In this document: positions 23,263-55,910 of the stretch, one piece after another
Position numbering within the stretch: position 1 is the stretch's first letter
How the letters are laid out: each line of letters begins with the position of its first letter
Assembly: GCF_002968335.2 (NCBI RefSeq)
Contig: NZ_CP134398.1
Location: 1,922,001 to 1,986,000 of the forward strand
From: Mycobacterium sp. ITM-2016-00316
GTDB taxonomy: Bacteria; Actinomycetota; Actinomycetes; Mycobacteriales; Mycobacteriaceae
DNA length: 64,000 nucleotides
Reading direction: 5' to 3'
Notes under the pieces: model-generated
Database searches by the model: none
What the model saw: the letters and a program-made list of their open reading frames with translations, nothing else
What the model was told of the DNA's origin: nothing
Position numbers and translations under genes: made by a program

Positions 23263-24930
23263 ATGAACAGTGATGTGGTCGGCGGCCGGGACGCGGTGCA
23301 GCACGCGTTGTCCGATCGCGCCGCATCGGTCAAGGCGCTGCTGGACGCCGATTTCGCGATGTTCGACACCGCCGAACTGCTGGGCCTGTTGTCTGAGCGT
23401 GAGCAGCAGGCCCGCGCCGATACCGCGGTCGATCACCGGATCCTGGCCGCCCTGATGGATCGGGCCACCCCGCATGAGATCGGCGGCAAAACCTGGACCG
23501 ATGTGCTGGCCACCCGCGACCGCCTCAGCGCCACCGAAGCTGCCCGGCGCATCACCGCCGCCCGCGATCTGGGGCCGCGGCACACCATGACCGGTGAGGT
23601 GTTGGAGCCGGTGCTGGCGGCATGCGCGGCCGCGCTGGCCGCCGGGGCCATCACCAGCGGGCACATCGCGATCATCCGGGCCACGCTGAACAAGGCCTCG
23701 GCCCGCCTGGATGCCACCGCGCGCGGGCAACTGGAATCCACACTGGTCGATATCGCCACCACCAATACCCCCGAGACGGTGCAGAAGGCCGCCGATCACG
23801 CGCTGGCTCTGATCAACCCCGACGGTGATGGCCCCGACCCGGCACGCCACCGGCGCGGGCTGAGCATCGGTCCCCAGGACGTCGACGGTATGGCCAAGGT
23901 GTCGGGCTGGGTGGACGCCGAATTCGCCGCCTACCTGCGCACCATCCTCGACGTCTGGGCACGCCCGGGCATCAACAACCCCGACGATGAGCAGCCCCAG
24001 CAGAATCCGGTGCCCAACCCACTGGAAGACGACGCTGCGGACGACGCGGTTGTCGACGACGCGGTTGTCGACGACAAGGGTGTGGACGACGAGGGTGTCG
24101 AGCCCCAGCCGCCGGCCCGGGACCAGGCCGCGCACGAGGACAAGGCCGGCGCCGATAGTGACGGTGAACTCGAACCCGAACCCGAGATGTCCGGCGTATC
24201 CGAACCCGAACCCGAGATGTCCGACGTATCCGAACCCGAACCCGAGGTGTGCGATACCGCCGGCCCACCGGTGAAGTGGGACCCTGACGAATTTCTGCGC
24301 GACCCCCGCACCCAGGCCCAACGCAACCACGACGCCATCAAAGCCGTCCTACGCGACACCCTGATGTCCAAAAGGCTCGGCCAACACAACGGCCTACCCG
24401 TCACCCTCGTCGTCTCCACCACCCTCAAAGAGTTGGAGGCCGCCGCCGGGATCGCGGTCACCGGATCGGGCACCCTCATGCCGATGCGGGATCTGATCCG
24501 GCTGGCCGAACACGCCCACCACTACCTGATCGTCTACCGCCACCACACCGCCGAACCGCTCTACATGGGCCGCTCCAAACGGTTGGCCACCAAAGCCCAA
24601 CGGCTACTGCTCTACAACCGGGACCGTGGCTGCACCCGACCCGGCTGCACCCAAGCGGCGTGTCGCTGCCAGGCCCACCACGCCAACCCCAGCTGGAACA
24701 ACGGCGGACTCACCGACGCACCCGACCTCGGGCTGGGCTGCGGACCCGACAACCAGCTCGCCGAACTGGGCTGGACCAACACCATCGACCCCGTCACCGG
24801 CCGCGTGCACTGGCACCCACCACCACTGATGGACACCGGCGGCGACACCCTCAACCACCACTTCCACCCCGAAGAACTCTTCCCGCCAGAGCTGCGACCG
24901 GGACTGGATGACGAAGAACCCATACTGTAA
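23263..24930 (+). CDS. 13E12-family protein (DUF222 + HNH endonuclease)
   Basis: A 555-residue protein. DUF222 covers about residues 20-320 ('MDRATPHEIGGKTWTDVLATRDRLS'). An acidic low-complexity region (about 245-335) with three 10-residue units of SEPEPEMSxV follows. A C-terminal HNH nuclease domain contains 'LLYNRDRGCTRPGCT..CQAHHANPSWNNGG', with the Cys and His of a zinc-HNH site. These genes are the REP13E12 family, repeated across mycobacterial genomes and linked to phage/mobile elements. An SOS box sits at the start. I chose the ATG at 23263, right after that box. Its stop codon is part of the 24923 operator. Confidence 0.88.
   Translation: MNSDVVGGRDAVQHALSDRAASVKALLDADFAMFDTAELLGLLSEREQQARADTAVDHRILAALMDRATPHEIGGKTWTDVLATRDRLSATEAARRITAARDLGPRHTMTGEVLEPVLAACAAALAAGAITSGHIAIIRATLNKASARLDATARGQLESTLVDIATTNTPETVQKAADHALALINPDGDGPDPARHRRGLSIGPQDVDGMAKVSGWVDAEFAAYLRTILDVWARPGINNPDDEQPQQNPVPNPLEDDAADDAVVDDAVVDDKGVDDEGVEPQPPARDQAAHEDKAGADSDGELEPEPEMSGVSEPEPEMSDVSEPEPEVCDTAGPPVKWDPDEFLRDPRTQAQRNHDAIKAVLRDTLMSKRLGQHNGLPVTLVVSTTLKELEAAAGIAVTGSGTLMPMRDLIRLAEHAHHYLIVYRHHTAEPLYMGRSKRLATKAQRLLLYNRDRGCTRPGCTQAACRCQAHHANPSWNNGGLTDAPDLGLGCGPDNQLAELGWTNTIDPVTGRVHWHPPPLMDTGGDTLNHHFHPEELFPPELRPGLDDEEPIL
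24171..24260 (+). repeat. Three 30-bp tandem repeats in the 13E12-family gene
   Basis: The unit (begins cgaacccgaacccgaga) occurs at 24171-24200, 24201-24230 and 24231-24260, with few differences. It encodes the 10-residue unit EPEPEMSxVS. A GACGACGCGGTTGTC repeat lies just upstream (24030-24075 region). The number of units may differ between strains. Confidence 0.8.
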
Positions 24931-24941
24931 TACTTACAGTC
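24923..24941. promoter_or_regulatory. Island operator A: TACTGTAA-TAC-TTACAGTC
   Basis: Perfect 7-bp arms ACTGTAA / TTACAGT with a 3-bp centre. It overlaps the stop codon of the 13E12-family gene and lies 28 bp before the CoA-transferase start. It is one of seven related sites in the catabolic island. Confidence 0.78.
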
Positions 24942-24968
24942 GGATATTCGACGAAGGTGGGTTCAACC

Positions 24969-26156
24969 ATGCCAGGGGTCCTCGACGGGATACGGGTACT
25001 CGACTACGGCCGATTCATCGCCGCGCCCTGGTGCAGTGCAATCCTGGCCGATATGGGTGCCGACGTCCTGCGCGTGGAGAAACGTGAGGGCGGCGAGGAC
25101 CGGTGGGTCCAGGCCGTCACCGACGGCGGTGAGGGCGGCACCTTCCTGCAGTGCAACCGCAACAAGCGTTCCCTGACTTTGGATTCCACGAGCGCGGAGG
25201 GCGCGGAGATCACCCGCCGACTGGTCGCACGCGCCGATATCGTCGTCGCCAATATGCCGTCCGCCGGGATGCGGGCCAGCGGACTGGACTACGAGACGCT
25301 GCGCGCCGTCAAGCCGGACATCATCCTGGCCAGCGCCACCGCCTACGGTGAGGGCGGCCCGTACAGCACCAAGGTCGGCTTCGACGGCGCCGGCCAGGTC
25401 ATGTCTGGCGCGGTGTACCGGCAGGGACTGCCCGACCAACCCATCCGGACCGTGGTGCCCTACAACGACTTCGGCACCGCGCTCACGCTGACGATCGGCG
25501 TCATGATGGCGCTCTACCACCGGGACCGCACCGGGGAAGGACAGCACGTCGAGGGTGCCCTGCTGCCGACTGCGCTGATGCTGTCCAACGCCTTCCTCAT
25601 CGAGCGGGAACTCCTGCAGACCGACAAGCCGCGGATGGGCAACAAGGGCGCCTCGGTGGCCCCGTGCGATCTGTATCGCACCGCCGACGATCAGTGGGTG
25701 CTCCTACAGGTGGCCGGTCAGCCGATGTTCAAACGGTGGTGCATTCTCATGGGCCGTGCGGAACTCTTCGACGACCCGCGCTTCGCCGACGACGATATCC
25801 GCTGGGAGAACGGCGATGTCCTCAACGACATCATGTCGCAGTGGTGTGCCGACAAGACGAAGGCCGAGGTCCTCGAACTCCTGGAGAAGGCGAAGATGCC
25901 CGCCGCGCCGCTGCTTTCCACTCAGGAAGTGCTCGACGATCCGCACATCCAGGCCATGGGTTACCTGAAGCGAGTGCCCTTTCCCGGCGCCTCCCGCGAT
26001 GTGCCGATCATCGAGACCCCGTTCCGGATGTCGGCTACACCCGGCAGCATCCGGCGCCGCGCCCCACTGCTCGGCGAGCACACCGATGAGGTGCTTGGGG
26101 AGATCGGTTATGACGCCGCGCAGATAGCAGGGTTACGGGCGGACGCCATCGTGTGA
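24969..26156 (+). CDS. Class III (CaiB/BaiF) acyl-CoA transferase
   Basis: A 395-residue CoA-transferase. It starts with 'VLDGIRVLDYGRFIAAPWCSAILADMGADVLRVEK', the family N-terminus, followed by 'NRNKRSLTLD' and the substrate loop 'GEGGPYSTKVGFDG'. The family moves CoA between acids through a catalytic Asp; 'PYNDFGTALTLTIGVMMAL' is the likely Asp region. It would activate a substrate acid of the island without ATP. GAAGGTGGG precedes the ATG at 24969, and operator A lies upstream. Its 3' end overlaps the convergent synthetase by 24 bp. Confidence 0.88.
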   Translation: MPGVLDGIRVLDYGRFIAAPWCSAILADMGADVLRVEKREGGEDRWVQAVTDGGEGGTFLQCNRNKRSLTLDSTSAEGAEITRRLVARADIVVANMPSAGMRASGLDYETLRAVKPDIILASATAYGEGGPYSTKVGFDGAGQVMSGAVYRQGLPDQPIRTVVPYNDFGTALTLTIGVMMALYHRDRTGEGQHVEGALLPTALMLSNAFLIERELLQTDKPRMGNKGASVAPCDLYRTADDQWVLLQVAGQPMFKRWCILMGRAELFDDPRFADDDIRWENGDVLNDIMSQWCADKTKAEVLELLEKAKMPAAPLLSTQEVLDDPHIQAMGYLKRVPFPGASRDVPIIETPFRMSATPGSIRRRAPLLGEHTDEVLGEIGYDAAQIAGLRADAIV

Positions 26157-27593
26157 CGCCGCGAGCATCTCGCGGATCCGGTGCTTGTCGGGCTTACCGG
26201 TGGCGCCGAAGGGAACCGCGTGCTCGCTGTCCAGGATCGACCAGACCGTCGGGACCTTGAAGGCGCTGAGCGTTTCCCTGGCCGCGGTGCGTAACTCGGC
26301 GGCGGACCGGCTCGTCACCACGGCAGCGGCGACGCAGCCGGCGAGATCGACCACGAACGCCGCCCGTACTCCGGGGATCGCCCGCAGCGCACGCTCCACC
26401 TCGCTGGGGTACACCGTGGCCCCACTGACCTTGAACATGTCATCGGACCGGCCGCGGTAGAACAGGAATCCGTCCTCATCGAGGAGCCCGAGATCACCGG
26501 TGGGGTAGTACCCGTCCGGAGTGAACACGTCCTCGCGGCCGCGCCGGCAGATCCCGCGCAGCACGTGCGGTCCGCGGATCTGGATCTGGCCGACCTCGCC
26601 TGCGGGCAGCCGCTCACCCGATTCGATATCGGTGATCCGCACATCCATCCCGGCGAACGGCTTCCCGCAACTGCCCCAGGCCGATTCGGGCATATCGGTG
26701 TCCGCGGGAAACCCGCAGTACGGCCCGAACGATTCGGTCATCCCGAACAGCGAGGCCCGCGCCCCCGGGGCCGAGCGCCTCTCCGGTGGCAACAACGCCT
26801 CCAGACTGCCCACCCGTAGGTCGGGCAGGGGTGCCAACAGAAAATGGGAGAGCGCCGTCGCCTGGTCGGGCCAACCGCGGAACAGCGTGACCCGCTCGCG
26901 GCGAAGCAATTCCAGCGTCGACTCGGCCTGCGGGATCGGCTCGGTCACCAACGTGGCCCCAGCCAGCAGCGCGGACAGGATCCCGGCCCCGAAACCGCCC
27001 ACCCAGAAGAACGGCATCGGCAGATACAGCCGGGTGTCCTCGGTGATGAGGCGTGCATCCAGCCCGGAACGCACCGCGGCAAGCGCACTGCCGTGGGAAT
27101 GCCGAACGCCCTTCGGTGGCCCACTGCTGCCCGAGGTGAACATGATGACCAACGGGTCGGCGGGCCGCACGGGTGGGAACGCTGCCCTGCCGCGCAATGC
27201 CAGCACCTCGCTCGGCGTCCACACCCGGCGCAGGGATGCCACCGGCCCCGGTGCGTAGCGCCGGCCGCGGAACTCCTCGACGGCGATCAGGTGCTGGACC
27301 GAGGCCGTACGCAGCTGTCCGGTGAGTTCGGGTGCGGTGAGAAGTGTGCTCAGCGGCACCAGCACCGCGCCGATCCTGGTGAGGGCCAGCGCGATCCGTA
27401 CCCAGTCGGCGCTGTTGGGCATGATCAGCCCGACCCGGGTGCCTTTTCCGATGCCGGCGCCGAGCAAACCCGAGGCCAACGCGACTGTGCTCGAATCGAG
27501 TTCGGCGTAGCTGATCCGGGTGTCGGGATCGATGATCATCGGCTTGCTGTCGGTGGCCCGCGCGCGGATCAGCTCATCGATGGTCTCAGTCAT
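26133..27593 (-). CDS. Acyl-CoA synthetase (AMP-binding), third of three in tandem
   Basis: A 486-residue ANL-family ligase: ATP + CoA + acid gives acyl-CoA. The P-loop 'FTSGSSGPPKGVRHSH', the 'GYYPTGDLG' motif and a C-terminal catalytic-lysine region 'PFGATGKPDKHRI' are present. It is shorter than typical long-chain FadDs (above 500), which suggests a compact acid substrate. Its start overlaps the previous synthetase by 8 bp. It is the last gene of the operon that starts at 32837. Confidence 0.88.
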   Translation of the reverse strand: MTETIDELIRARATDSKPMIIDPDTRISYAELDSSTVALASGLLGAGIGKGTRVGLIMPNSADWVRIALALTRIGAVLVPLSTLLTAPELTGQLRTASVQHLIAVEEFRGRRYAPGPVASLRRVWTPSEVLALRGRAAFPPVRPADPLVIMFTSGSSGPPKGVRHSHGSALAAVRSGLDARLITEDTRLYLPMPFFWVGGFGAGILSALLAGATLVTEPIPQAESTLELLRRERVTLFRGWPDQATALSHFLLAPLPDLRVGSLEALLPPERRSAPGARASLFGMTESFGPYCGFPADTDMPESAWGSCGKPFAGMDVRITDIESGERLPAGEVGQIQIRGPHVLRGICRRGREDVFTPDGYYPTGDLGLLDEDGFLFYRGRSDDMFKVSGATVYPSEVERALRAIPGVRAAFVVDLAGCVAAAVVTSRSAAELRTAARETLSAFKVPTVWSILDSEHAVPFGATGKPDKHRIREMLAASHDGVRP

Positions 27594-29025
27594 CGAACAG
27601 CTTCACCAGCCCGGGCAGATCGACCTTGCCACTGGACATCATGGGGACATCGGCGGGGCGGCAGATCGCGAACCGTCTGGGCACCTTGTAGGACGACAGT
27701 GTCTCCCGCAATGCCCGGCGGAGCGCCTCGGTGTCGACCGGACCGTCACTGACGATCACGGCGGCCACGATCTGCCCGCGCTGCGCGTCGGGCAGAGCCA
27801 GCACGTGGGCGACGAATCCCTGCGCCGCGAGAGCTTTCTGCACCTCGCCGGGGGTGACATTGGCTCCCGCGGTCTTGATCATCGCCCCGGCACGGGTCAG
27901 GTAATAGAAGTAGCCGTCCTCGTCGACGCGCACCAGATCGCCGGTGTGAAACCAGCCGTCGGCGTCGAAGCACTCCTCGCGGCTGCGTCCGTAATAGCCC
28001 TGCATGACATAACGCCCACGGATACAGAGCTCACCGGTGTCGAGCACCGTGGTCTCGAACCCCGGCGCGGGACGGCCGAAGCTGCCGCGCCGGTGCTCGG
28101 GCTGATCGGACTCGTCGCCGTCGATCAGCAGCACGCTGGCGGCCTCGGTCATCCCCAGCATGTTGTGCCGCAACTCGGGATCGGCCGGACGGGCATCCGG
28201 CGCCATGATCGGGTACAGATTCCCGCGGCGCAGCGTCGACAGGTCCCGGTCGACGAAACTGGGATGACGGGTCAGATGCGCGACGGCCGTGGCGAAGCCG
28301 TTGGTGACATTGGGGCGCACCGCCTCCAGCAGATCCAGGGTTTCACCGGCATCGGTGGCATTCGAGCAGACCAGTGTGGACCCGGCCACGATGGTGGCGA
28401 GCAGGCCGAACGCGAAACCGCCGATCCAGAAGAACGGCGAAGTGCAGAACAAGATGTCCGACTCGGAGAGTCCGCGGATCTCGTTGAGATTGCGTTGATG
28501 CCCGAGCAGCCCGGCGTGGGTGTGCACCGCACCCTTGGGCGGGCCGGTCGAACCCGAGGTGTAGACGATCGCCAGCGGATCGCAGCCGTCGACGTCGGCT
28601 TCCAGCCCGGTCAGGTCCGGTTCGGCGGCCGATGGCGGGTCGAACAGCACGTGGCGCAGGCACGGCGCCGCGATCCCTGCGAGGTGTTGCTCGTAATCGT
28701 GTTGACGGAAAGACCGCGCCGCCAACAGGAACTCGGTGTCGCTGTCGACCAGCTGGGTCGTCAACTCCGCGGCGGTCTGGAAGGTGGAGAACGGCACCAC
28801 CACCGCACCGATACGCGCGGCGGCCAGCATCCCCACCACGAACGCCGCGCCGTTGGGGTACAGCAGCCCGACGTGGGTGCCCTTGCCCGCGCCCAGCGCG
28901 ACCAGGCCACGCGCGAGGTCTGCGGACCGGATATCTGCCTCGGCGTAGGTCAGCCGTTCGTCATCGCAGATCAGCAGGGGATGGTCCGCTCGGCGGCGGA
29001 GCAGGTCGACCAGTGACTCGATCAC
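27586..29025 (-). CDS. Acyl-CoA synthetase (AMP-binding), second of three in tandem
   Basis: A 479-residue ANL ligase. 'IVYTSGSTGPPKGAVHTH' is the P-loop, 'GWFHTGDLVRVDEDGYF' the hinge region and 'MMSSGKVDLPGL' carries the C-terminal Lys. I chose the GTG at 29025 because it makes a GTGA overlap with the preceding gene; the open frame upstream of it is the neighbour read in another phase. With the flanking synthetases it forms a tandem of three paralogues with clearly different sequences, so they probably act on different acids of one pathway. Confidence 0.88.
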   Translation of the reverse strand: MIESLVDLLRRRADHPLLICDDERLTYAEADIRSADLARGLVALGAGKGTHVGLLYPNGAAFVVGMLAAARIGAVVVPFSTFQTAAELTTQLVDSDTEFLLAARSFRQHDYEQHLAGIAAPCLRHVLFDPPSAAEPDLTGLEADVDGCDPLAIVYTSGSTGPPKGAVHTHAGLLGHQRNLNEIRGLSESDILFCTSPFFWIGGFAFGLLATIVAGSTLVCSNATDAGETLDLLEAVRPNVTNGFATAVAHLTRHPSFVDRDLSTLRRGNLYPIMAPDARPADPELRHNMLGMTEAASVLLIDGDESDQPEHRRGSFGRPAPGFETTVLDTGELCIRGRYVMQGYYGRSREECFDADGWFHTGDLVRVDEDGYFYYLTRAGAMIKTAGANVTPGEVQKALAAQGFVAHVLALPDAQRGQIVAAVIVSDGPVDTEALRRALRETLSSYKVPRRFAICRPADVPMMSSGKVDLPGLVKLFDD

Positions 29026-30455
29026 GAGGTGGTGAAATGCTCTCGTACCGCCCCGAGATCGGCCTTGCCGGACGGGGTGCGCGGGATCACCTCGACGATG
29101 GCGATGTCGGTCGGGATTTCGTAGCGGGCCAGCCGAGTGGCCAGGAATTCGGACAGCTCGTCCGCGGTGGCCTGGCCGCGCAATTCGACCATGGCGACCG
29201 GGGTTTCGCCGAGACGTTCGTCGGCCAGGCCGATGACCGCAGCGCCGCGCACCGCGGGGTGACTTTCCAGCGCGGTGCGCACATCGTCGGGCATCACCTT
29301 GAAACCACCCCGGATGATGGCCTGATCGGCGCGGCCGAGGATCCAGACGAATCCGTCGGCGTCGATGCGCGCCAGGTCGGTGGTGCGGATCCAGTCCCCA
29401 GACGACATCTGTGCGGGAATGACCTCCAACAGCCCTTGCTCGTCCGGGCCGAGGACGTGACCCGCCTCGTCGACCACCCGTAGTTGTGCGCCGGGATTGG
29501 CACGGCCCACGCTGCCACGCTTGGCCTGCCAGTGCTGCTGGTGATCGGCCAGCGTCCAACCGGTCACGCCGCCGCCGAACTCGGTGGCCGCATAGGACGT
29601 CAGCACCGGGATGCCGAACTTGGCGGTGAAGGCATCGGCGTCGTCGGCGGACAACGGGGCGGTGCCCGAGGTGACCGCGCGTACGCCGGCCAGATCGTCG
29701 CGGGTGAGTGCGGAGTGCAACACCATCCGCAGCGCGGCCGGCACCAGCGACACCGCGCGGGGTTGATGCTCGCGCACCGCGGCGGCCCAGCGCTGCAGTT
29801 CGAACTTGGGCAGCAGCACGAACGGCCGGGCCTCACTGATACACAGCAGGATCCGGAATACCCCGCCGACGTGCACCAGCGGGGAGTTCACGATCGCCAC
29901 CCCGCGTCGCAGCTCGGTGGGCGCCTGCCACGGTTGGCGTCCCAGCACGCTGCGGGCGAGCATGTCGTAGGTGAGGTCGACCCGTTTGGGCGGGCCGGTG
30001 GTGCCGCTGGTCAGCATCCACACCGCGACTCCCGGGCGTCGGGCGTCATCGATGGTGGTGCCCAGCTCCTCGGTGGGGGCGGTGTCGAGATCGGAGATGG
30101 TGATCACCGTGCCGGTGAATGCCGGTGTCAGCAGGTTGGCGATATCGTCGGCGACGCCGATGACCACCGGCAGCACGAGCGCAGCGATATCGGCGCGGGT
30201 GCGGTCATCACCGCGCGACGGGTTGATGACCACGACGGTGCCGCCGGTCTCCAGCACGCCGAGCAGCGCGGCGACATGGGCGGGCTGATTGCGCAGCATG
30301 ATCCCGACCCGAACCGGGCCGGTGAGCGCGCCGATGCGGCGCGCCAGCATGGCGAGCTGCCCCCAGTTGGACCACCGACCCTCGTACTGCAGCGCCGGCG
30401 CCGACGGATCCAGATCCAGGACGGTGCCGATGCGTTGCGAAAGCGGATGGGACAT
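29022..30455 (-). CDS. Acyl-CoA synthetase (AMP-binding), first of three in tandem
   Basis: A 477-residue ANL ligase, the most divergent of the three: 'MLTSGTTGPPKRVDLTYDML' is the P-loop, 'SYAATEFGGGVTGW' the A5 region, and 'TPSGKADLGAV' the C-terminal Lys. I chose the ATG at 30455, which overlaps the crotonase stop by one base; a TTG one codon earlier is possible. The unusual 'PKRVDLT' in place of PKGVxxT may reflect a special substrate. Confidence 0.87.
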   Translation of the reverse strand: MSHPLSQRIGTVLDLDPSAPALQYEGRWSNWGQLAMLARRIGALTGPVRVGIMLRNQPAHVAALLGVLETGGTVVVINPSRGDDRTRADIAALVLPVVIGVADDIANLLTPAFTGTVITISDLDTAPTEELGTTIDDARRPGVAVWMLTSGTTGPPKRVDLTYDMLARSVLGRQPWQAPTELRRGVAIVNSPLVHVGGVFRILLCISEARPFVLLPKFELQRWAAAVREHQPRAVSLVPAALRMVLHSALTRDDLAGVRAVTSGTAPLSADDADAFTAKFGIPVLTSYAATEFGGGVTGWTLADHQQHWQAKRGSVGRANPGAQLRVVDEAGHVLGPDEQGLLEVIPAQMSSGDWIRTTDLARIDADGFVWILGRADQAIIRGGFKVMPDDVRTALESHPAVRGAAVIGLADERLGETPVAMVELRGQATADELSEFLATRLARYEIPTDIAIVEVIPRTPSGKADLGAVREHFTTS

Positions 30456-31228
30456 CAACGGATCCGCGGCGGGGTCTTGGGGATCGGTCGTGCCGCGAGC
30501 TCCTCCTTGGCGATCGGGTTGCCCAGCCGGGTGTAGATCAGACCGTGGTCCATCGCGGCGCGGTACGGCTTGTCCAGCGACTCCCAGATGGCCTTGACGG
30601 TGCCCTGGGTCGCGGTCGGCGGTTTGGCGGCGATGGCGGTGGCGATCTCATCGGCGCGGTTCCACAACATGTCTCGGGGCACCACCTCGGTGACCAGACC
30701 GATCCGCAGCGCGGTATCGGCGCTCACCCGTTCGTCGTTACCCATCAACGCCATCCGCAGGGTGTCGCCGAGACCGATACGGCGCATCAGTCCGATCGGC
30801 TCCAGCGCCGACACCAGCCCGGCGCTGACATGGGAGTCGAAGAAGGTGGCCTCCTGCGAGCAGATCACCACATCGGACTCGTTGACGAAGTACAGCGCAC
30901 CCGCGGTGCACATGCCCTGCACCGCGCAGACCACCGGCTTCCACATCTTCTGCCACTTGGGGCTGAGCAGCTCGCCCGGATCCTCGTGGTTCCAGACGAT
31001 CTCGGGTTGTCCATAGCTGGATTTCACGTCCAGGCCGGCACTGAAGGCGCGGTCACCGGCGGCGCGCAGCACCACCGCATGGATGGCCTCGTCATCCTTG
31101 ATGGTGTGCCAGGCATCGCGCATCTCATGGCACATGGCGCGGTTGAACGAATTCAGCGATTCGGGGCGGTTGAGCGTCACGGTGGCGACGTGGCTGCCGT
31201 GGTTCAGGTCGAGCAGGATGGTGTCCAC
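30455..31228 (-). CDS. Crotonase-family protein (enoyl-CoA hydratase/isomerase), third in operon
   Basis: A 257-residue crotonase-fold protein. The CoA oxyanion motifs are 'AFSAGLDVKSS' and 'GMCTAGALYFVNESDVV'. At the active site it reads 'FFDSHVSAGLVSALEPIGL', where classical hydratases have two Glu residues (FGLPEV and PGAGG contexts), so both catalytic Glus are replaced. It may do another crotonase reaction or a hydrolysis. It starts at a GTG two bases after the previous stop and is co-transcribed with the synthetases. Confidence 0.85.
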   Translation of the reverse strand: MDTILLDLNHGSHVATVTLNRPESLNSFNRAMCHEMRDAWHTIKDDEAIHAVVLRAAGDRAFSAGLDVKSSYGQPEIVWNHEDPGELLSPKWQKMWKPVVCAVQGMCTAGALYFVNESDVVICSQEATFFDSHVSAGLVSALEPIGLMRRIGLGDTLRMALMGNDERVSADTALRIGLVTEVVPRDMLWNRADEIATAIAAKPPTATQGTVKAIWESLDKPYRAAMDHGLIYTRLGNPIAKEELAARPIPKTPPRIR

Positions 31229-31230
31229 CC

Positions 31231-32034
31231 CTACCGCGCCTGCCAGTTGGGCGTGCGCTTCTCCACGAACGCGCGCGGCCCCTCCAGCGCATCCTCGGTG
31301 CGGGTGACCCGCTCCCGGAACGTCTCGGCCAGGATCTCCCCCTCGTGCAACGGCAGATCCAGCGTCTTGTGGATGGCCAGGCGGGTACCCCGTACTGCCA
31401 GCGGCGCATTGAGATTGACCGTGTCGGCGATCTCGTGCGCACGCGCCAGCAGCTTCTCGTGTTCGACGATCTCGGTGATCAGCCCGAGTTCGTAGGCCCG
31501 CTGCACCGTCATTCGCTCGTGCTTGCCCATCAGCGCCATCCGCAAAGCCACCGACCGGGGCAGTGCCTTGGCCAGGCGCACCATCTCGCGCGCGGCGACC
31601 AGGCCGATGCTGACATGTGGGTCGAAGAAGGTGGCCCTGTCGGAGGCGATGACGATATCACCGGTGGTCACCCAATCCAGCCCTGCGCCACAACAGATTC
31701 CGTTGACGGCGACGATGACCGGTTTGGTCATGGTCCGAAACGGTGGGGTGCCCTCCTGCGGGGCCTCCCACTGTTCGTAGGTGGACAGGTACGGGCGTTC
31801 GTTGAGCACCTTGCCGTCGCCGGGGATCTCCTTGACATCGGCGCCGGTGCAGAACGCCCGCCCGTTGGCGGTGACGATCATCAGCCACACGTTGTCGTCG
31901 TCCTCGACTCGCTGATAGGCCGCCCGCAGTTCGGTGATCATGTGCGGCGACAACGCGTTCAGCGCGTCGGGCCGGTTCATGGTGATGGTGGCCTTGTGGC
32001 CGTCGACGTCATAGGTGATCGTGTCGTAGCTCAT
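31231..32034 (-). CDS. Crotonase-family protein, second in operon
   Basis: A 267-residue crotonase-fold protein with 'AFCTGADVKEIPGDG' and 'NGICCGAGLDWVTTGDIV' as CoA-binding loops. The active-site strand 'FFDPHVSIGLVAAREMVRL' lacks the standard Glu pair and resembles the neighbouring paralogue. The length is normal. It starts 8 bp after the stop of the first crotonase gene. The two share the FFDxHVSxGLV motif, so they may derive from a duplication and could form a hetero-oligomer. Confidence 0.86.
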   Translation of the reverse strand: MSYDTITYDVDGHKATITMNRPDALNALSPHMITELRAAYQRVEDDDNVWLMIVTANGRAFCTGADVKEIPGDGKVLNERPYLSTYEQWEAPQEGTPPFRTMTKPVIVAVNGICCGAGLDWVTTGDIVIASDRATFFDPHVSIGLVAAREMVRLAKALPRSVALRMALMGKHERMTVQRAYELGLITEIVEHEKLLARAHEIADTVNLNAPLAVRGTRLAIHKTLDLPLHEGEILAETFRERVTRTEDALEGPRAFVEKRTPNWQAR

Positions 32035-32042
32035 GATTCCTC

Positions 32043-43022: not shown

Positions 43023-43025
43023 ACC

Positions 43026-46561: not shown

Positions 46562-46571
46562 CGGTTACCTC

Positions 46572-47717
46572 TCAGAGGGTCAGGACGGTGGCACCCGCGG
46601 TGCCGGGCGCGCCGTAGAGCTGGGCGAAACCGACCTTGGGTTCGCCGGGAACCTGGCGATCACCGGCCTCGCCGCGCAGCTGGCGCACCAGTTCGTGGAT
46701 CTGGCGCAGCCCGGACGCGCCGATCGGTTCGCCGTTGGCGATCAGGCCGCCGTCGGTGTTCACCGGCAGCGCGCCGCCGATCTCGGTGGCACCGTCGGCC
46801 AGCAGCTTCTCCTGGTCGCCGTGGGCGCAGAACCCGCATTCGGCCATGTGGATGATCTCGGCACCGGCGTCGGTGTCCTGCAGTTGCACCACGTCGACGT
46901 CTTCGGGTGCGACACCGGCCTTTTCGAATGCGGCACGCGCGGCGTACACCGTCGGGGCCACATCCTCCACCACCGGGGCGCAGGTGGTGTTCACCTCGTA
47001 GGCGCCGTAGCGGCGGGTGCGGACCTCGACGGCCCTCAGGTACACCGGTTTGGAGGTGTACTTGTGCGCCAGGTCGGCCCGGCACATCACCACCGCGGCC
47101 GCGCCTTCGTCGGGGGCGCAGAACATGTACTGGGTCAGCGGGTAGTTCAGCATGGTCGAGTTGAGGATGTCGTCCTCGGTGATGGGCTTGCGCCGGAAGG
47201 CGTTCGGGTTCAGGGCGCCGTTGCGCAGATTCTTGTTCGCCACCTTGGCCAGGGTGCGCGCCGAGATGTTGTGGTCGTGCAGGTAGCGGTTGGCCTTCAT
47301 GCCGAAGAACTGGGTGGTCAGGTACTGGCCGTTCTCGGCGTACCAGGCCGGCATGCCGACCAGACCCGGATCCTCGGTGAAGGCGCCGCGCGGGTGCTTG
47401 TCCAGCCCGACGGCGATCCCGATGTCGTAGTCGCCGAGGCGGATACCGTCCGCACACACCTTGGCCGCACTCGCTGCCGTCGCGCAGGCGTTGAAGACAT
47501 TGGTGAACGGGATGCCGGACAGCCCGACCATGCCCACGATGGCGTCCGGGTTGGCGACCGTCCAGCTGCCCCCGGTGGCGGCACCGATGTCCTTCCACTC
47601 GACCCCGGCGTCGTCGACGGCGGCGAAGATGGCGTCCACCCCCATCGCAAGAGCCGTTTTACCCTCGAACCGGCCGAACGGGTGCAGGCCGACTCCGATG
47701 ATCGCCACGTCGTGCAT
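46572..47717 (-). CDS. SCP-x type thiolase / Ltp-like aldolase partner
   Basis: A 381-residue thiolase-fold protein of the lipid-transfer group. The nucleophile Cys region 'NVFNACATAASAAK' is present, but the GHP motif is 'GEPIGASG' (His replaced by Glu) and the last motif is 'QLYGAPGTAG' without the second Cys. This pattern matches Ltp2-like retro-aldolases more than true thiolases. It is translated with the DUF35 protein upstream, whose start-side neighbour it directly abuts. Such pairs cleave a C-C bond of a hydroxyacyl-CoA in steroid side-chain degradation. Confidence 0.82.
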   Translation of the reverse strand: MHDVAIIGVGLHPFGRFEGKTALAMGVDAIFAAVDDAGVEWKDIGAATGGSWTVANPDAIVGMVGLSGIPFTNVFNACATAASAAKVCADGIRLGDYDIGIAVGLDKHPRGAFTEDPGLVGMPAWYAENGQYLTTQFFGMKANRYLHDHNISARTLAKVANKNLRNGALNPNAFRRKPITEDDILNSTMLNYPLTQYMFCAPDEGAAAVVMCRADLAHKYTSKPVYLRAVEVRTRRYGAYEVNTTCAPVVEDVAPTVYAARAAFEKAGVAPEDVDVVQLQDTDAGAEIIHMAECGFCAHGDQEKLLADGATEIGGALPVNTDGGLIANGEPIGASGLRQIHELVRQLRGEAGDRQVPGEPKVGFAQLYGAPGTAGATVLTL

Positions 47718-48247: not shown

Positions 48248-49783
48248 GTGGGTGAGGTCGCGGCGGTCACGACGAGCGTGGACCTCGGGTACCGGGCGGC
48301 GGGCCGGGCCGAGACGCGGATGCTCATCGACGGTGAGCTGACCGCCGCGGTCTCCGGTGCCGAGTTCGACAATGTCAGCCCGGCAACAGGTTTGGTGCTG
48401 GGCAGCACCACGGCGGCAGGTCCCGAGGACATGGACCACGCCATCGGTGCAGCCCGGCGCGCATTCGATGACAGCGACTGGTCGACCAACCGCGCACTGC
48501 GGCAGCGTTGCCTGCTGCAGCTGCAGAGTGCCATCGAAGCCGAAACCGAACAGCTGCGTGAGGAACTGATCGCCGAGGTCGGATGCCCGGCCATGACGAC
48601 GCAGAACGCGCAACTGGATTGGCCGCTCGCCGATGCGCTGCGCTACCCGGCCCGGCTGATCGACGAGTTCGAATGGGAGCGACGCCTCGACGGCGGCGGT
48701 CTGTTCGGCGAGCGCAACGCGCGCACCGTGGTCAAGGAGGCGGTCGGCGTCGTCGCCGCCATCACCCCGTCCAACTTCCCGATCGAAGTCATCCTCAACA
48801 AGCTCGGCCCGGCGCTGGCCGCCGGAAACACCGTGGTGCTCAAGCCCGATCCGAGCACCCCGTGGAATGCCACCCGGCTCGGGCGTCTGATCGCCGAGCG
48901 CACCGACATCCCGGCCGGGGTGATCAACGTGGTCCCCACCCCGTCCAATCAAGTGGCCGCGCTGCTCGGCACCGATCCCCGCGTGGACATGGTGTCGTTC
49001 ACCGGGTCGACCGCGGTGGGCAGGCATCTGATGCGGGTCGGCGCCGACACCATGAAGCGCACCTTCCTGGAACTCGGTGGCAAGTCCGCGATGATCGTGC
49101 TCGACGACGCCAACCCGGCACACATCATCCCCGGTGCCATCGGCGCCTGCGTGCACGCCGGTCAGGCATGTGCGGCGAATACCCGGATGCTGGTGCACCG
49201 CAGCCTGTTCGACGAGGCCGTCACCACTGTGATAATGGCTTTCGGTGGCGTGCCCGTCGGTGACCCGGTGCTGCCGACCACCCTGGTGGGTCCGCTGATC
49301 AGTGCGGCCCAGAAGCAACGGGTGCTCGATGCCATCGACGGCGCACGGCGCGACGGTGCCGAGGTCGTCGTCGGTGGCGGCATACCCGCGGGGCTGCCCG
49401 ACCACCTGGCCAATGGGCACTTCGTGGCGCCGACCGTGATCCTCGGCGCGCACCCGGGATCGTCCATCGCCCAGGACGAGGTGTTCGGCCCGGTGCTGGT
49501 GCTCATCCCGTTCGACGACGACGACGAAGCGGTGCGGCTGGCCAATGACAGCGCCTTCGGGCTGGCCGGCGCGGTGATGTCGAAGTCCCCGGAACGCGCC
49601 ATGGGTATCGCCCGGCGGATCAGGACCGGAGCCATCGGCGTCAACGGCGGCATGTACTACGGCGCCGACGCACCGTTCGGTGGGTACAAGAACAGCGGCG
49701 TCGGGCGGCAGTGCGGTATCGAGGGCTTCGCCCAGTACACCGAGACCAAGACCATCGGGTGGCGACTGCCCCGTCAGGCCTGA
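48248..49783 (+). CDS. NAD(P)-dependent aldehyde dehydrogenase
   Basis: A 511-residue aldehyde dehydrogenase. 'ITPSNFPIEVILNKLGPAL' and 'SFTGSTAVGRHL' (251-254 FTGS) bind cofactor; E275 in 'FLELGGKSA' and C308 in 'GQACAANTRM' form the active site. It oxidises an aldehyde to the acid that a synthetase can activate. I chose the GTG at 48248, because GGGAGG lies 7 bases upstream; an ATG at 48320 would cut into the N-terminal domain. Operator B is upstream. Confidence 0.9.
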   Translation: MGEVAAVTTSVDLGYRAAGRAETRMLIDGELTAAVSGAEFDNVSPATGLVLGSTTAAGPEDMDHAIGAARRAFDDSDWSTNRALRQRCLLQLQSAIEAETEQLREELIAEVGCPAMTTQNAQLDWPLADALRYPARLIDEFEWERRLDGGGLFGERNARTVVKEAVGVVAAITPSNFPIEVILNKLGPALAAGNTVVLKPDPSTPWNATRLGRLIAERTDIPAGVINVVPTPSNQVAALLGTDPRVDMVSFTGSTAVGRHLMRVGADTMKRTFLELGGKSAMIVLDDANPAHIIPGAIGACVHAGQACAANTRMLVHRSLFDEAVTTVIMAFGGVPVGDPVLPTTLVGPLISAAQKQRVLDAIDGARRDGAEVVVGGGIPAGLPDHLANGHFVAPTVILGAHPGSSIAQDEVFGPVLVLIPFDDDDEAVRLANDSAFGLAGAVMSKSPERAMGIARRIRTGAIGVNGGMYYGADAPFGGYKNSGVGRQCGIEGFAQYTETKTIGWRLPRQA

Positions 49784-49820: not shown

Positions 49821-51044
49821 TCAGGTGATCGGCTCGAAGGTGACGGGTACGGCGGTGGGCGAGCGAAACGGTTGGCCGAAGATGTGGGGATCCCCGCTGG
49901 TGTCGAGCTTGAGATCGGTGACCCGGTTGAGCAGGCATTCGATGGCGACCCTGGTCTCCATCCGGGCCAGATGAAGTCCGAGGCAGGTGTGTTCACCGGC
50001 GGCGAAAGTAATGTGCGGCAGGCGCGTCCGGAAAATATCGAACTCCTCGGCCCGTTCCCAGCGGGACTCGTCGCGGTTGGCCGCGCCGATGCACACATCG
50101 ATGACGGCGCCGGCGGGCAGTTCGACACCGTCGAGTTCGGTGGCCACGCTCGCCGAACGCTGCACGGTGGTCAGCGGTGTCTCGTAGCGCAGGCCCTCCT
50201 CGATCGCCTGGCCGAGGAGCTCGTGGTCGGCCTGTACCGCGGCGAACTGATCGGGATGGGTCAACAACAGGTAGAGCAGATTGCCCGAGGACCGGAAGGT
50301 GGTCTCCAGCCCTGCCGGCAACAGCAACCGCAGGAACGAGTAGATCTCTTCGTCGGTGAGCTTTTCGCCCTCGACCTCGGCGGTCACCAGATCGCCGATG
50401 ATGTCGTCGGTGGGCGAAGACCGCCGCAGATCGATCTGGTTGACGAAGTAATCCTTCAGCGCCGCAGAGGCTTCGAAGGCGCGCTTGTACTTGACGTGGT
50501 AGCTGATCAACTCGACGGCCCGGGCGCGGAACCACGCGAGATCCTCTTCGGGCAGACCCAGCAGCTTGGAGATCACCCGGGTCGGGAACTCGAAGGTGAA
50601 GTCGCGGACCAGGTCCGCGCGACCGGTCTCGATGAACTCGTCGATGAGTTGTTCGCAGATGGGTCGGACGATCTCCGGCTCCCAGCGCTTCAGAGATTTC
50701 GCCTTGAAGGCCGTGGTGACCAGATTGCGGTGTGCGCGGTGCAGCGTGCCCTCCATCGCCAGGATGGACGGGCCGATGAACAGGCCGATGGTGTCGTCGT
50801 AGATCTTGGAATTGAACGACTTGCCGTCTCGGAAGATGGTGTTGACGGCGTCATAGGACACCGCCGCGTACTGGTTCGCGGGCCGGAATTCGTCCGGGGT
50901 CTTGGACCAGTCCATGACACTGCCCGCGAAGACGCCGTGCCGGGCGCGGTGTGCGGCGAAGAACGGGTACGGGTCGCGGAGCAGGTTGAACGAGTCGCCC
51001 AAGTCCGCCAGTAGGTCGTTTTCGCCCTGCGTCTGGCTGTCCAC
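49821..51044 (-). CDS. Cytochrome P450
   Basis: A 407-residue bacterial P450. The heme ligand is C354 in 'FAAGEHTCLGLHLARME', the ExxR motif is in 'EEGLRYETPL', and the I-helix 'LLPAGLETTFRS' has Glu where AGxDTT is common. It hydroxylates a lipophilic substrate with electrons from a ferredoxin; FprB-like partners are plausible. I chose the GTG at 51044, preceded by AAGGCAGG; a GTG at 51068 also exists. It is alone on the minus strand, with operator C and a second inverted repeat upstream. Confidence 0.9.
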   Translation of the reverse strand: MDSQTQGENDLLADLGDSFNLLRDPYPFFAAHRARHGVFAGSVMDWSKTPDEFRPANQYAAVSYDAVNTIFRDGKSFNSKIYDDTIGLFIGPSILAMEGTLHRAHRNLVTTAFKAKSLKRWEPEIVRPICEQLIDEFIETGRADLVRDFTFEFPTRVISKLLGLPEEDLAWFRARAVELISYHVKYKRAFEASAALKDYFVNQIDLRRSSPTDDIIGDLVTAEVEGEKLTDEEIYSFLRLLLPAGLETTFRSSGNLLYLLLTHPDQFAAVQADHELLGQAIEEGLRYETPLTTVQRSASVATELDGVELPAGAVIDVCIGAANRDESRWERAEEFDIFRTRLPHITFAAGEHTCLGLHLARMETRVAIECLLNRVTDLKLDTSGDPHIFGQPFRSPTAVPVTFEPIT

Positions 51045-51075
51045 GCGTGCTACCTGCCTTCGTGCCACCGGTTCG

Positions 51076-52615: not shown

Positions 52616-54277
52616 TCAGGCTCCCGCCGCCTGCTCACGCGCCCACCGGTAATCGGCCTTCCCGGCCGGGCTGCGCTCGATCAGCGGGCGGAACACCACA
52701 GCCTTCGGCAACTTGTACCGTGCGATGGAACTTTCGGCGTGCCGGATGAGTTCCTCGGCGTCGGCGCGGGCACCGTCGGCGAGTGCGACGACCGCGACCA
52801 CCTCGGAACCCCACCGCTCGCTGGGGCGGCCGGCCACCACCACGTCGGCCACCGACGGATGCGAGGCGATGGCCGACTCCACCTCCTCGGCGAAGATCTT
52901 CTCGCCACCGGAGTTGATGGTGACCGAGTCCCGGCCGAGCAGTTCGACCGCACCGCTCTCCAGATGCCGGGCCCGGTCGCCAGGCACCGCACACCGCACA
53001 CCCTCGATCACCGGGAACGTCGCCGCGGTCTTGGCGGCATCGCCCTTGTAGCCGAGCGGCACGAAACCGCGCTGGGCCAGCCAGCCGAGACCGTCATGGG
53101 CCGGCGGCAGGATGGCGGTGAAATCCGCTGCCACCACGCAGGTGTCGGGCCCGGCGTTGAAGGTGCCGGTCGATACCGCACCGGGAGCGGACATGTGGCT
53201 CATCTGCGCGCCGGTCTCCGACGAACCGACACCGTCGATCACGATGAGCCCGGGTTTGCAATCGATCAATTGCTGCTTCACATACGGGGTGAGTTGCGCG
53301 CCGCCATTGGCCACCACGGCGAGGCTGGAGACATCCGCGCTGCCGTCGCGCAGGCTGGCTTTGATGGCGGCCAGCAACGGGCGGGCCATCGCGTCGCCGA
53401 CCACGGTGGCCACCAGCACCCGTTCGCGCTCGATGGTGCGGACCACCTCGGCTGCGTCGAAACGGTCGACGATGTTCGAGAAGACGAGCGTCTGACCGGT
53501 GGTGATCGCGGTCATGGCGGCCCACTGGGCGGCGCCGTGCATCAGCGGCGGCAGGATCAGCAGCGTGGTGCCGGGGTTCTCGGTGACCCGACCGACGATC
53601 TCCTCGACCGATCCGGCCCGCTCGCCGGTCATCATGTTGCGGCCGCCGAATGCGGTCATGAAGATGTCGTGCTGGCGCCACAACACGCCCTTGGGCATGC
53701 CGGTGGTGCCGCCGGTGTAGAGGACGTAGAGATCGTCGGGGGAGGGCTGCACCGGCGGAGCGGCCGCCTCGGCGGTGACGATCGATTCGTAGTCGACGGC
53801 ACCGTCGAGCAGGTCGTTGCCGGACCCGTCGGCGATCTGGATGAGCACCCTGAGATTCGGTAGTTCGTCCCGGATCTCGGCGACCCGCGGTGCGAAGGCG
53901 CCGTGGTACAGCAGCGCCGAGGCCTCCGAATCGGCCAGCAGATACTGCAATTCGTTCTTCACGTAGCGGTAGTTGACGTTGAACGGCGCCACCCTGGCCC
54001 GGAACGCGCCGAGCATCCCCTCGACGTACTCCGCGCCGTTGTAGGCGTAGATGCCGAGCAGGTCCTGGCCGACCTCGTGCCCGGCCAGCGTGTCGCGCTC
54101 GGTGTGGCAACCCAGACCCTGAGCGTGCAGATATGCGGCGAGCCGGGTCGACCGGTCGACCATGTGGCGGTAGCTGTACCGTCGCTCACCCTGGGCCACC
54201 AGCGTGCGGTCGGGTATCGCTTCGGCGACGGCCTCGGCCACCGCAGACACGGTGAACATCGGGGAAACCTCAGCCAT
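52616..54277 (-). CDS. Acyl-CoA synthetase (AMP-binding)
   Basis: A 553-residue ANL ligase. 'VLYTGGTTGMPKGVLWRQ' is the P-loop, 'DGVGSSETGAQMS' the A5 motif and 'SPAGKADYRWAREQ' holds the catalytic Lys. It strongly resembles the synthetase at 40570, including GVLWRQ. I chose the ATG at 54277, which overlaps the isochorismatase-like gene by 8 bp; the longer frame reads through that gene. It is the third gene of the Rieske operon. Confidence 0.89.
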   Translation of the reverse strand: MAEVSPMFTVSAVAEAVAEAIPDRTLVAQGERRYSYRHMVDRSTRLAAYLHAQGLGCHTERDTLAGHEVGQDLLGIYAYNGAEYVEGMLGAFRARVAPFNVNYRYVKNELQYLLADSEASALLYHGAFAPRVAEIRDELPNLRVLIQIADGSGNDLLDGAVDYESIVTAEAAAPPVQPSPDDLYVLYTGGTTGMPKGVLWRQHDIFMTAFGGRNMMTGERAGSVEEIVGRVTENPGTTLLILPPLMHGAAQWAAMTAITTGQTLVFSNIVDRFDAAEVVRTIERERVLVATVVGDAMARPLLAAIKASLRDGSADVSSLAVVANGGAQLTPYVKQQLIDCKPGLIVIDGVGSSETGAQMSHMSAPGAVSTGTFNAGPDTCVVAADFTAILPPAHDGLGWLAQRGFVPLGYKGDAAKTAATFPVIEGVRCAVPGDRARHLESGAVELLGRDSVTINSGGEKIFAEEVESAIASHPSVADVVVAGRPSERWGSEVVAVVALADGARADAEELIRHAESSIARYKLPKAVVFRPLIERSPAGKADYRWAREQAAGA

Positions 54278-54860
54278 GGGTGCTCCAGTCTTCGATGAGT
54301 GCTGCGGTGGTGGTGATGGTGGCCAGCAGGGCCAGGCTGTTGTCGATGACGGCCGCACCGTATTCGGCGGGGATACCGGCGACCGCGTCCCGGGGGAGCA
54401 CCACCCGGTAGCCCGCGTTGACGGCGTCCATCACGAGATTGGGGATGGCGATGTTCAGCGAGACCCCGACGGCGACGATGGTGGTGACGCCGAGGTTGCG
54501 CAGGATCGCATCCAGATCGGTGCCGCCCATCGGCCCGAGTCCATGCCAGCGTGACAGCACCAGATCTGCTGGCTCCGGGCCGAATTCGGGCAACAGGGCG
54601 GCACCTTCGCTGCCGGGGGTGATGTCGACGGAGCGCTTACCCGCGGCGAACAGGCGGGCGTTGTGATTGGACCCCAATCCGTCCGGGCGGCGCTGCACCA
54701 GACAGTGCACGACGTGATGGCCTGCGGCGCGGGCCGCAGGCAGCAGCCGGCCGATATTGGGCAGTGCCACCCGACGGGCCTCGTCGGCCAGCACGGCCAG
54801 ACCGGCGTTCGGGCCGACCACCGCACCCTGGAGTTCCTGGGTGATGATCGCCGTCGTCAT
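54270..54860 (-). CDS. Isochorismatase-family protein lacking the usual catalytic residues
   Basis: A 196-residue cysteine-hydrolase-fold protein. The family uses Asp, Lys and Cys. Here the N-terminal motif reads 'IITQELQGAVVG' (no Asp), the Lys position is 'LSRWHG' and the Cys motif is 'GVSLNIAIPNLVMDAVNAGY' with Ala in place of Cys. It is therefore probably not a classical amidohydrolase; it may bind a ligand or use a different chemistry. It is in an operon between the Rieske oxygenase (ATGA overlap) and a synthetase. Confidence 0.8.
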   Translation of the reverse strand: MTTAIITQELQGAVVGPNAGLAVLADEARRVALPNIGRLLPAARAAGHHVVHCLVQRRPDGLGSNHNARLFAAGKRSVDITPGSEGAALLPEFGPEPADLVLSRWHGLGPMGGTDLDAILRNLGVTTIVAVGVSLNIAIPNLVMDAVNAGYRVVLPRDAVAGIPAEYGAAVIDNSLALLATITTTAALIEDWSTHG

Positions 54861-55864
54861 ACCGGTGTGCCGACCGGCGGGACCTCATAAAATTGCGTCG
54901 CCCATTTACGGATGGCCATATAGGGTTTCGCGTCGATCTTGGACAGCGAGGGCCGCTCGATGTACTTCTGGTAGCGCCAGATGTCGAGATCGTCCCAGAC
55001 CGTCACCAGATACTGCTTCTCGACGCGCGTGCGGACATCCTCGGGTGGGATGTCGGAGGTGTCGCCGGGCACCTTGGGCCACCAGATCGAATAGAACATG
55101 TTGGATACGTGGTCATCGACGGGGGTGCAGGCAAAGATCAGCCGGTGCTCGGCGGCGCCCTCGAAGGCACTGATCGCGAAACCCAGGCCGGAGAAGTGGC
55201 TGTGGATGTAGAGCGACATCTTGTCCGGATCGTCGCTGCGGGCATCGGGCCAGCCGGTGAGGAACTGCCACTCGTTGTCGACGACCTTCCAGTCCAGGCA
55301 GACCGGGGTGACGGTGGCGCGGTGTACATAGCGGAAATGCGCGCTGTCAGGGCCATTCTCGGCGACGATCTGCGGATGCACCGGTTCGTTCTCGGCGAAT
55401 CGGGAGAACTCCGGATAGGGCCGGTAGAACGCGTCGGGATCGGTGGGGAACTGCGGGAACTTGTCGAAGATATCGGGCAGTTCCCAGCGCGGGGGTTCGC
55501 CGTGCGGCTGGAACCACATGAACACGCAGCCGTGCTGTTCGGCGATCGGATAGGTGCGCAGCCGAAGGCCGCGGTTGGGCTTGTCGGGCTGATATGGGAT
55601 GTGGCGGTTGGTGCCGTCGGGTCCCCACCGCCAACCGTGGAAGGGGCATTCCACGCAGTCGCCGACGACCTTGCCGCCGTGGCCCAGATGCGCACCGAGG
55701 TGTTTGCAATGGGCTTCCATCAGGTTCAGTGCGCCGTCCTGATCGCGCCAGGCCACCAGGTCTGCACCGAAGTAGCGCAGCGGCCGGGTTTCCCCGGCGA
55801 CGAATTCGGCCGACCAGCCGATCATGAACCAGCCGGTGACCTTCCAGGTGAACGGAACCTCCAC
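54857..55864 (-). CDS. Rieske-type oxygenase, KshA-like
   Basis: A 335-residue Rieske non-heme iron oxygenase component. The Rieske cluster ligands are C53 and H55 in 'AHCKHLGAHLG' and C73 and H76 in 'ECPFHGWRW'. The mononuclear iron site is in 'ENGPDSAHFRYVH', with Asp and two His. This form resembles KshA, the 3-ketosteroid 9-alpha-hydroxylase oxygenase. A separate reductase is needed and none is adjacent. I chose the GTG at 55864, behind GGAAGG; longer frames would run through operator D. It is first gene of its operon. Confidence 0.88.
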   Translation of the reverse strand: MEVPFTWKVTGWFMIGWSAEFVAGETRPLRYFGADLVAWRDQDGALNLMEAHCKHLGAHLGHGGKVVGDCVECPFHGWRWGPDGTNRHIPYQPDKPNRGLRLRTYPIAEQHGCVFMWFQPHGEPPRWELPDIFDKFPQFPTDPDAFYRPYPEFSRFAENEPVHPQIVAENGPDSAHFRYVHRATVTPVCLDWKVVDNEWQFLTGWPDARSDDPDKMSLYIHSHFSGLGFAISAFEGAAEHRLIFACTPVDDHVSNMFYSIWWPKVPGDTSDIPPEDVRTRVEKQYLVTVWDDLDIWRYQKYIERPSLSKIDAKPYMAIRKWATQFYEVPPVGTPV

Positions 55865-55891
55865 GGGAACACCTTCCAGATCCGAACCTGA

Positions 55892-55910
55892 TACTGAACA
55901 GCTTACAGTA
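55892..55910. promoter_or_regulatory. Island operator D: TACTGAAC-AGC-TTACAGTA
   Basis: A perfect right arm and two mismatches in the left arm compared with site C. It lies between the divergent Rieske operon (55864) and the SDR operon (55949), 28 and 39 bp from their starts. Confidence 0.68.

Follow-up and report, generated by a model that had tools for sequence, protein, structure and literature searches.

A 19-base palindrome at the promoters of a mycobacterial degradation island, a probable operator of a TetR-family regulator

We analysed a 64-kb stretch of the genome of Mycobacterium sp. ITM-2016-00316 (bases 1,922,001-1,986,000, about 1% of the 5.99-Mb single-contig genome; hereafter the window), in which seven copies of one 19-base palindrome stand before the operons that make up a large island of degradation genes. 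Judging from sequence comparison, this palindrome is very probably the operator of one transcription factor of the TetR family, the protein encoded at 35838-36593 within the island (hereafter the island TetR).

The original prediction had placed seven copies of TACTGTAA-N3-TTACAGTA in the window, and all seven were found where it had put them. Its ranking of the copies, with those at 24923, 48175 and 51076 exact or near-exact, 55892 two bases off, and 36722, 38431 and 32863 more degenerate, agrees with the mismatch counts, which are zero at 51076, one each at 24923 and 48175, two at 55892, three at 36722, and four each at 32863 and 38431. The predicted operator sites, to which no strand is assigned, and their proposed reader are given below, with the weight-matrix scores of the sites.

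24923..24941, operator site TACTGTAATACTTACAGTC, 16-28 bp 5' of a CoA-transferase III gene, 28.7 bits
32863..32881, operator site TACAGTTGCCCATACAGTA, between an enoyl-CoA hydratase gene (-) and a GntR/FCD gene (+), 19.9 bits
36722..36740, operator site TACCGTAATGACTATAGTA, between the TetR gene (-) and an enoyl-CoA hydratase gene (+), 26.1 bits
38431..38449, operator site TACCGATAGGTATACAGTA, 5' of a hydratase-amidohydrolase-ligase operon, 21.3 bits
48175..48193, operator site AACTGTAATTCTTACAGTA, 5' of an aldehyde dehydrogenase gene, 32.2 bits
51076..51094, operator site TACTGTAATCCTTACAGTA, perfect, between a P450 gene (-) and an aldehyde dehydrogenase gene (+), 35.0 bits
55892..55910, operator site TACTGAACAGCTTACAGTA, between a Rieske/KshA_C oxygenase gene (-) and a short-chain dehydrogenase/reductase (SDR) gene (+), 25.1 bits
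35838..36593, minus strand, TetR-family regulator of 251 aa with TetR_N and TetR_C_1, proposed operator reader (Pfam, co-inheritance, helix conservation, fold model)

Every site has one or more plausible gene starts at a distance of 1-60 bp, and in that sense the claim that all copies lie within 60 bp of gene starts holds; the start of the TetR gene itself is 129-138 bp from the site at 36722. Five of the seven (32863, 36722, 48175, 51076 and 55892) fall in divergent promoters by the gene models, as had been proposed.

To score the sites, we derived a weight matrix from 109 distinct sites in other genomes; loci of the window's own genome were left out, and those of near relatives were kept in. 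With this matrix, exactly the seven sites took the top ranks of the window, at 35.0 down to 19.9 bits; the next position reached 9.9 bits, and the best score in 20 random Markov windows was 14.0 bits. Random occurrence across the genome had been named in the prediction as a finding that would speak against a regulon. At up to three mismatches, five of the seven motif sites of the whole genome lie inside the window, while a reversed control pattern had eight sites genome-wide, and at up to two mismatches there were five motif sites against none for the control. A looser IUPAC pattern was not specific, with 19-21 genome matches against 45-47 for its control, and that scan is uninformative.

The sites are also conserved within the genus, which we sampled with 297 genomes. 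At least one site at up to two mismatches occurs in 216 of them (727 sites), compared with 72 genomes (101 sites) for the reversed control, and the island with its sites is mostly syntenic in the other mycobacteria compared. For individual promoters, we counted sites of at least 15 bits within 300 nt 5' of a gene, in the loci of the best 80 of 289 relatives of the island TetR and, for the other genes, in 21 further stretches; the loci counted also fed the matrix. Genes are named here by family and window coordinate. A site lies 5' of the TetR gene in 76 of the 80 loci, consistent with the claim that this gene, placed at 36584 in the original prediction, has a copy (the 36722 site) in its own promoter. 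With the consensus only, the 480 nt around and 5' of the TetR start hold a site at up to three mismatches in 70/80 loci, and 300 permuted palindromes averaged 0.007 loci with a maximum of 1. Where the hydratase does not adjoin the TetR gene, the site stays with the TetR gene.

Sites likewise precede the orthologues of hydratase 36796 (42/44 loci), hydratase 38479 (71/72), hydratase 32043 (62/67), GntR 32929 (24/38) and SDR 37581 (30/67), the last of which adjoins TetR where the hydratase is missing. Operon-internal genes have none or few: amidohydrolase 39305 (amd39) 0/72, ECH31 0/64, ECH33 3/66 and thiolase 34654 3/46. In the 21 further stretches, sites were found 5' of the P450 (7/8), aldehyde dehydrogenase (ALDH) 48248 (7/7), ALDH 51140 (4/6), Rieske (7/7), CoA-transferase (2/2), thiolase 46572 (3/9), hydroxysteroid dehydrogenase (HSD) 57209 (5/6) and flavin monooxygenase (FMO) 58167 (2/5) genes, but neither of the operon-internal genes FadD52 (0/9), acad43 (0/8) and FadD29 (0/6) nor of GntR 19459 (0/3); the coding-sequence controls gave 0 sites. 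The same motif thus stands at the orthologous promoters of other mycobacteria, a check that had been proposed beforehand. As for the sites being chance or a repeat element, two of the seven are degenerate, with four mismatches each, but dinucleotide shuffles of the window gave no match at up to three mismatches, and it is these degenerate sites that recur 5' of hydratases 32043 and 38479 in nearly all loci, so that we give this explanation a practically negligible probability. The observation of the seven sites is confirmed.

The distribution of the sites follows that of the island TetR. Sites (at up to two mismatches) are present in 211 of the 232 genomes with a strong homologue (E ≤ 1e-80) and in 5 of the 65 without one, with means of 3.1 and 0.09 sites. 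The window's genome holds one TetR of the island type at E ≤ 1e-40; the protein is 98% identical to those of Mycolicibacterium frederiksbergense LB 501T and Mycolicibacterium sp. P9-22, which points to a Mycolicibacterium close to these two as the source. It has the TetR_N helix-turn-helix (PF00440, E 3.1e-13, above cut-off), and a structure model of moderate confidence (mean pLDDT 64, pTM 0.57) gives an all-helical TetR fold, for which the 50 Foldseek matches listed were TetR or engineered TetR at a probability of 1.00, though at an rmsd of 7-11.

Outside the genus, 11 of the 201 sampled genomes of the family, in six other genera, carry a homologue of the island TetR at 58-69% identity (E ≤ 1e-80). 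In 15 homologues from other genera, the recognition-helix region (residues 52-68) agrees with that of the island TetR at 15-17 of 17 positions, as against 52-63% identity over residues 80-235, a range that leaves out L158, which is one fragment of a split gene. Many of the island's catabolic genes recur in the 16 stretches around these TetRs, though arranged differently, and palindromes of this kind stand 5' of several; the sites remain beside TetR and the same enzymes in spite of the rearrangement. Some of these sites are identical to that at 38431 (TACTGTATACCTATCGGTA), and the inner AA/TT is relaxed, giving TACTGTA-N5-TACAGTA. They were found 5' of hydratase 38479 (4/4), hydratase 32043 (6/6), thiolase 34654 (3/3), P450 (3/4), SDR 37581 (3/5) and ALDH 48248 (2/4). 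At up to two mismatches, the relaxed pattern occurs 3-13 times in each of the 11 genomes that have a strong TetR homologue, and at least once in 5 of 12 other genomes (1, 1, 1, 1 and 5). These 12 were picked by hand, ten without a TetR match and two (G333, G339) with a homologue of 42-43%, both among the five with sites. Since the reversed control was noisy and exceeded the pattern in 8 of the 11 TetR genomes, only the comparison between the groups was used.

Several points weigh against the island TetR as the reader. Of the 232 genus genomes with the TetR, 21 have no site at up to two mismatches, though the TetR's own site often has three, and the TetR is kept without a recognisable upstream site in M. 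lepraemurium (L132; best 7 mismatches) and Mycolicibacter algericus (L131; best 6). The 11 genomes from other genera were selected for the presence of the TetR, and there a site lies within 300 nt 5' of the TetR in just 7 of 16 stretches, the Rieske (0/3), thiolase 46572 (0/4) and hydratase 36796 (0/3) genes have none, and ECH31 (4/8) and amidohydrolase 39305 (2/6) do carry them. Furthermore, the co-occurrence counts ignore kinship, and where the island is lost, the TetR goes with its targets; the autoregulatory site, the conservation of the helix and the rearranged islands carry most weight in our reading.

Co-occurrence by itself cannot tell a regulator from a target when both sit in one island, and this would favour a regulator outside the window that reads the motif and has the island TetR as just one of its targets. 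Against it stand the rearranged islands of the 11 other-genera genomes, in which the TetR is present with its recognition helix nearly fixed and its effector domain diverging, and we consider such an outside reader improbable. Five regulators lie in or near the island, and three candidates from the window, namely GntR 19459, GntR 32929 and TetR 60879, were rejected as readers on the basis of their distribution. The GntR/FCD regulator 19459-20196 is itself widespread (a homologue at E ≤ 1e-60 in 255/297 genomes) and lies about 8-11 kb from the TetR in G012, G082, G101 and G110, but it is far from the TetR in G291 and G134. Moreover, 27 genomes have this GntR without a strong TetR, and just 2 of the 27 show a site, one each, compared with 209 of the 228 genomes that have both. 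No site was found within 300 nt 5' of it in 3/3 stretches, and its best relatives in the 11 other-genera genomes are 36-44% identical, lie outside the island stretches and are absent at E ≤ 1e-30 in 4/11. The usual operator of FCD regulators has a short GT..AC form, from which this palindrome differs, with GT and AC seven bases apart. Taken together, a role for GntR 19459 as the reader is quite improbable.

The other GntR/FCD regulator, 32929-33687, has a site in its own promoter, both in the window and in the 24 of 38 loci given above, but strong homologues (E < 1e-80, one partial) occur in just 98/297 genomes, and 113 of the 134 genomes that have the TetR and lack this GntR still have sites, which leaves it a very slim prospect. 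Of 30 genomes searched for TetR 60879, 3 had a match (E ≤ 1e-20); the 30 came from a set of 74 that combine the island TetR with two or more sites and lack a strong GntR 32929. For the EthR-like TetR 21611, there was none among the matches listed in 20 stretches and one 41% match (L153) in 20 others, with no dedicated search. The island TetR, which had been pointed to from the start, is supported as the probable regulator by its autoregulatory site, co-inheritance, conservation and near-invariant recognition helix.

A second TetR, beside a P450 gene and between two operator copies, was seen in L040, L050 and L052; it is 47-57% identical to the island TetR and has almost the same recognition helix. 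In three mycobacterial examples, the recognition-helix regions of the paralogous TetRs are identical at 15 of 17 positions, and their effector domains are 37-49% identical. In addition, a similar palindrome lies about 150 bp 5' of the more distant TetR homologue (42%) of another genus (G333:C33:27671-27689), hinting at a wider TetR subfamily that shares the operator. Somewhat short of an even chance, in our estimate, is the broader proposal of a catabolic regulon that is core to the family, distinct from KstR and devoted to a common natural substrate, with an operator that is read in some lineages by two paralogous TetR sensors. If true, the two-sensor reading would mean that one set of promoters could be opened by either of two different intermediates.

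The original prediction had spoken of a regulon across one catabolic island; the seven island sites stand, and the reach is wider than the island. An eighth site, TACCGAATTGCTTACTGTA, lies 2.6 kb to the right of the window (genome C1:1988568-1988586, L152:4568-4586; 20.6 bits), between a carboxylase-type gene (best family TIGR01117, below cut-off) and a gene for an F420-dependent oxidoreductase (TIGR03617, above cut-off), which is followed by a short-chain dehydrogenase-like open reading frame (ORF) and a P450 gene. Related sites occupy the corresponding place in L047, L050 and L055. At genome 4,136,818 (L038:9819-9837), a site of 27.2 bits lies about 57 bp 5' of a P450 gene 2.2 Mb away; it recurs in G020 (L043), and a similar P450 gene in L042 also has one. 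A further site, with three mismatches and 20.5 bits, was found at genome 688,428.

The genes of the island around the seven sites are as follows.

24957..26156, plus strand, CoA-transferase family III
26133..32837, minus strand, predicted operon of three enoyl-CoA hydratases and three acyl-CoA ligases (an opposite-strand ORF overlaps a ligase near 27586-29013)
32929..33687, plus strand, GntR/FCD regulator, predicted target and nested regulator
36796..38378, plus strand, enoyl-CoA hydratase and SDR
38479..44081, plus strand, predicted operon of enoyl-CoA hydratase, amidohydrolase, acyl-CoA ligase (PRK07798 family), amidohydrolase and acyl-CoA dehydrogenase-like protein
45330..47717, minus strand, amidohydrolase, small ORF without Pfam match, SCP2-type thiolase/lipid-transfer-like protein
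48248..49783, plus strand, aldehyde dehydrogenase, Rv0768-like but under that family's cut-off
49821..51068, minus strand, cytochrome P450
51140..52615, plus strand, aldehyde dehydrogenase
52616..55870, minus strand, predicted operon of Rieske/KshA_C-type oxygenase, isochorismatase-like hydrolase and acyl-CoA ligase (PRK07798 family)
55934..59813, plus strand, SDR, 3-beta-HSD/epimerase-like and FMO-like genes

At the left end of the island, a DUF222 gene (window 23158-24941) ends within the 24923 operator, and such a gene also adjoins the CoA-transferase in G034. In G082, the counterpart of GntR 19459 lies directly 5' of the CoA-transferase instead of the DUF222 gene; given this gene order, an insertion may account for the FMO, TetR 21611, hydrolase and DUF222 genes. 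The GntR 19459 gene is split in two pieces in G045 (C1:4299018-4299759), a genome that still holds two operator sites. Plasmid searches returned no orthologue among the matches listed.

As a working mechanism, a dimer of the island TetR would bind the 19-bp site, probably overlapping the core promoter, and would keep the island operons and its own gene off until a pathway intermediate, most likely an acyl-CoA from the island ligases, released it. In the promoter of hydratase 38479 (69 loci aligned on the site), a conserved TTGcGG stands 5' of the operator with its end seven bases upstream, and from this spacing we infer that the operator would overlap the core promoter and that the TetR would repress the island operons. 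A sigma-70 scan of 48000-56200 gave one promoter-like match, away from any site. Known TetR catabolic regulators respond to pathway intermediates; the inducer of KstR, for example, is 3-oxo-4-cholestenoic acid, according to a passage of PMC4881515. By analogy, the inducer here is likely to be an acyl-CoA or acid intermediate, probably a CoA ester.

With regard to the substrate, the genes presumed to be under this control (P450s, Rieske oxygenase, ALDHs, ligases, hydratases, thiolases and amidohydrolases) resemble a pathway that would act on a hydrophobic acid of alicyclic or isoprenoid type. Specifically, the P450s, the Rieske oxygenase (a distant KshA-like enzyme), the PRK07798-family ligases and the SCP2-type thiolase suggest a sterol-like or isoprenoid-type acid, while the family names of the island enzymes do not identify it. 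As strong homologues of the TetR occur in 232/297 genomes of the genus and in the 11/201 of the family outside it, the pathway is widespread. The substrate question is directly testable, given a defined operator, a single leading candidate for the regulator and a limited set of genes. No description of the operator or the regulon was found in the open-licence literature among the matches listed, and we therefore regard it, on present sequence evidence, as an apparently new regulon of a known kind.

Among known systems, the classical tetracycline repressor TetR is nearest in fold and domain family (TetR_N and TetR_C_1), and its operator tetO is likewise a 19-bp odd-length palindrome. The island TetR differs in its catabolic neighbours and in its score with NF010319 (80 bits, cut-off 265), and was rejected as a tetracycline repressor proper; it was also rejected as MftR2, the mycofactocin regulator (NF038211, 42 bits, cut-off 285).

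That the sites belong instead to a known sterol regulon, that of KstR, KstR2 or the Rv0767c-type motif X, would fit the similar enzyme types and the presence of ACTGTAAC in some KstR sites, as seen in PMC1995591. The comparison of the sites themselves makes this highly improbable and agrees with the earlier statement that the operator was not recognised as that of KstR or KstR2. The weight matrix gives negative scores, from -0.5 to -15.5 bits, to 14 KstR motif sequences, each 29 bp long, and the sole TnnAAC-N2-GTTnnA core in the window lies at 55092, inside the Rieske gene. The KstR2 operator is AAGCAAG-N2-CTTGCTT, and the window has no exact palindrome of this consensus; the KstR2 regulon (HIP / ring C-D catabolism) is alike in that its acyl-CoA catabolic operons are under a TetR repressor.

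Motif X, described in Mycobacterium sp. VKM Ac-1817D and attributed there to the Rv0767c orthologue (PMC6593523), defines a predicted mycobacterial TetR regulon that is alike in its P450s, aldehyde dehydrogenases and SDRs. It differs in that the Rv0767c-type TetR gene of this genome lies at 5.115 Mb, divergent from the Rv0768 orthologue and outside the island. The promoter of that gene has GGACA-N2-TGTCC palindromes and no match to our motif (best matrix score -8.5 bits), and PMC10312376 describes GAC and GTC as over-represented, and TAA and TTA as under-represented, in Rv0767c sites; on these grounds motif X appears to be a different operator, as compared indirectly, through the Rv0767c-type promoter and the described composition. 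Within the window, motif-X-like GGACA-N2-TGTCC palindromes occur at 666-677 and 808-819, at the start of and before a TetR_N ORF (90-737, minus strand) that is divergent from a ferredoxin/flavoprotein reductase gene (863-2431, plus strand), and this pair is possibly a second member of the Rv0767c-type regulon.

The KstR regulon (Rv3574; sterol catabolism) is alike in that a TetR-family repressor has a long palindrome as its site, found at many catabolic promoters as well as at that of its own gene, and KstR sites share the outer ACT..AGT half-sites; they differ in being built on AAC-N2-GTT and in standing at other genes.

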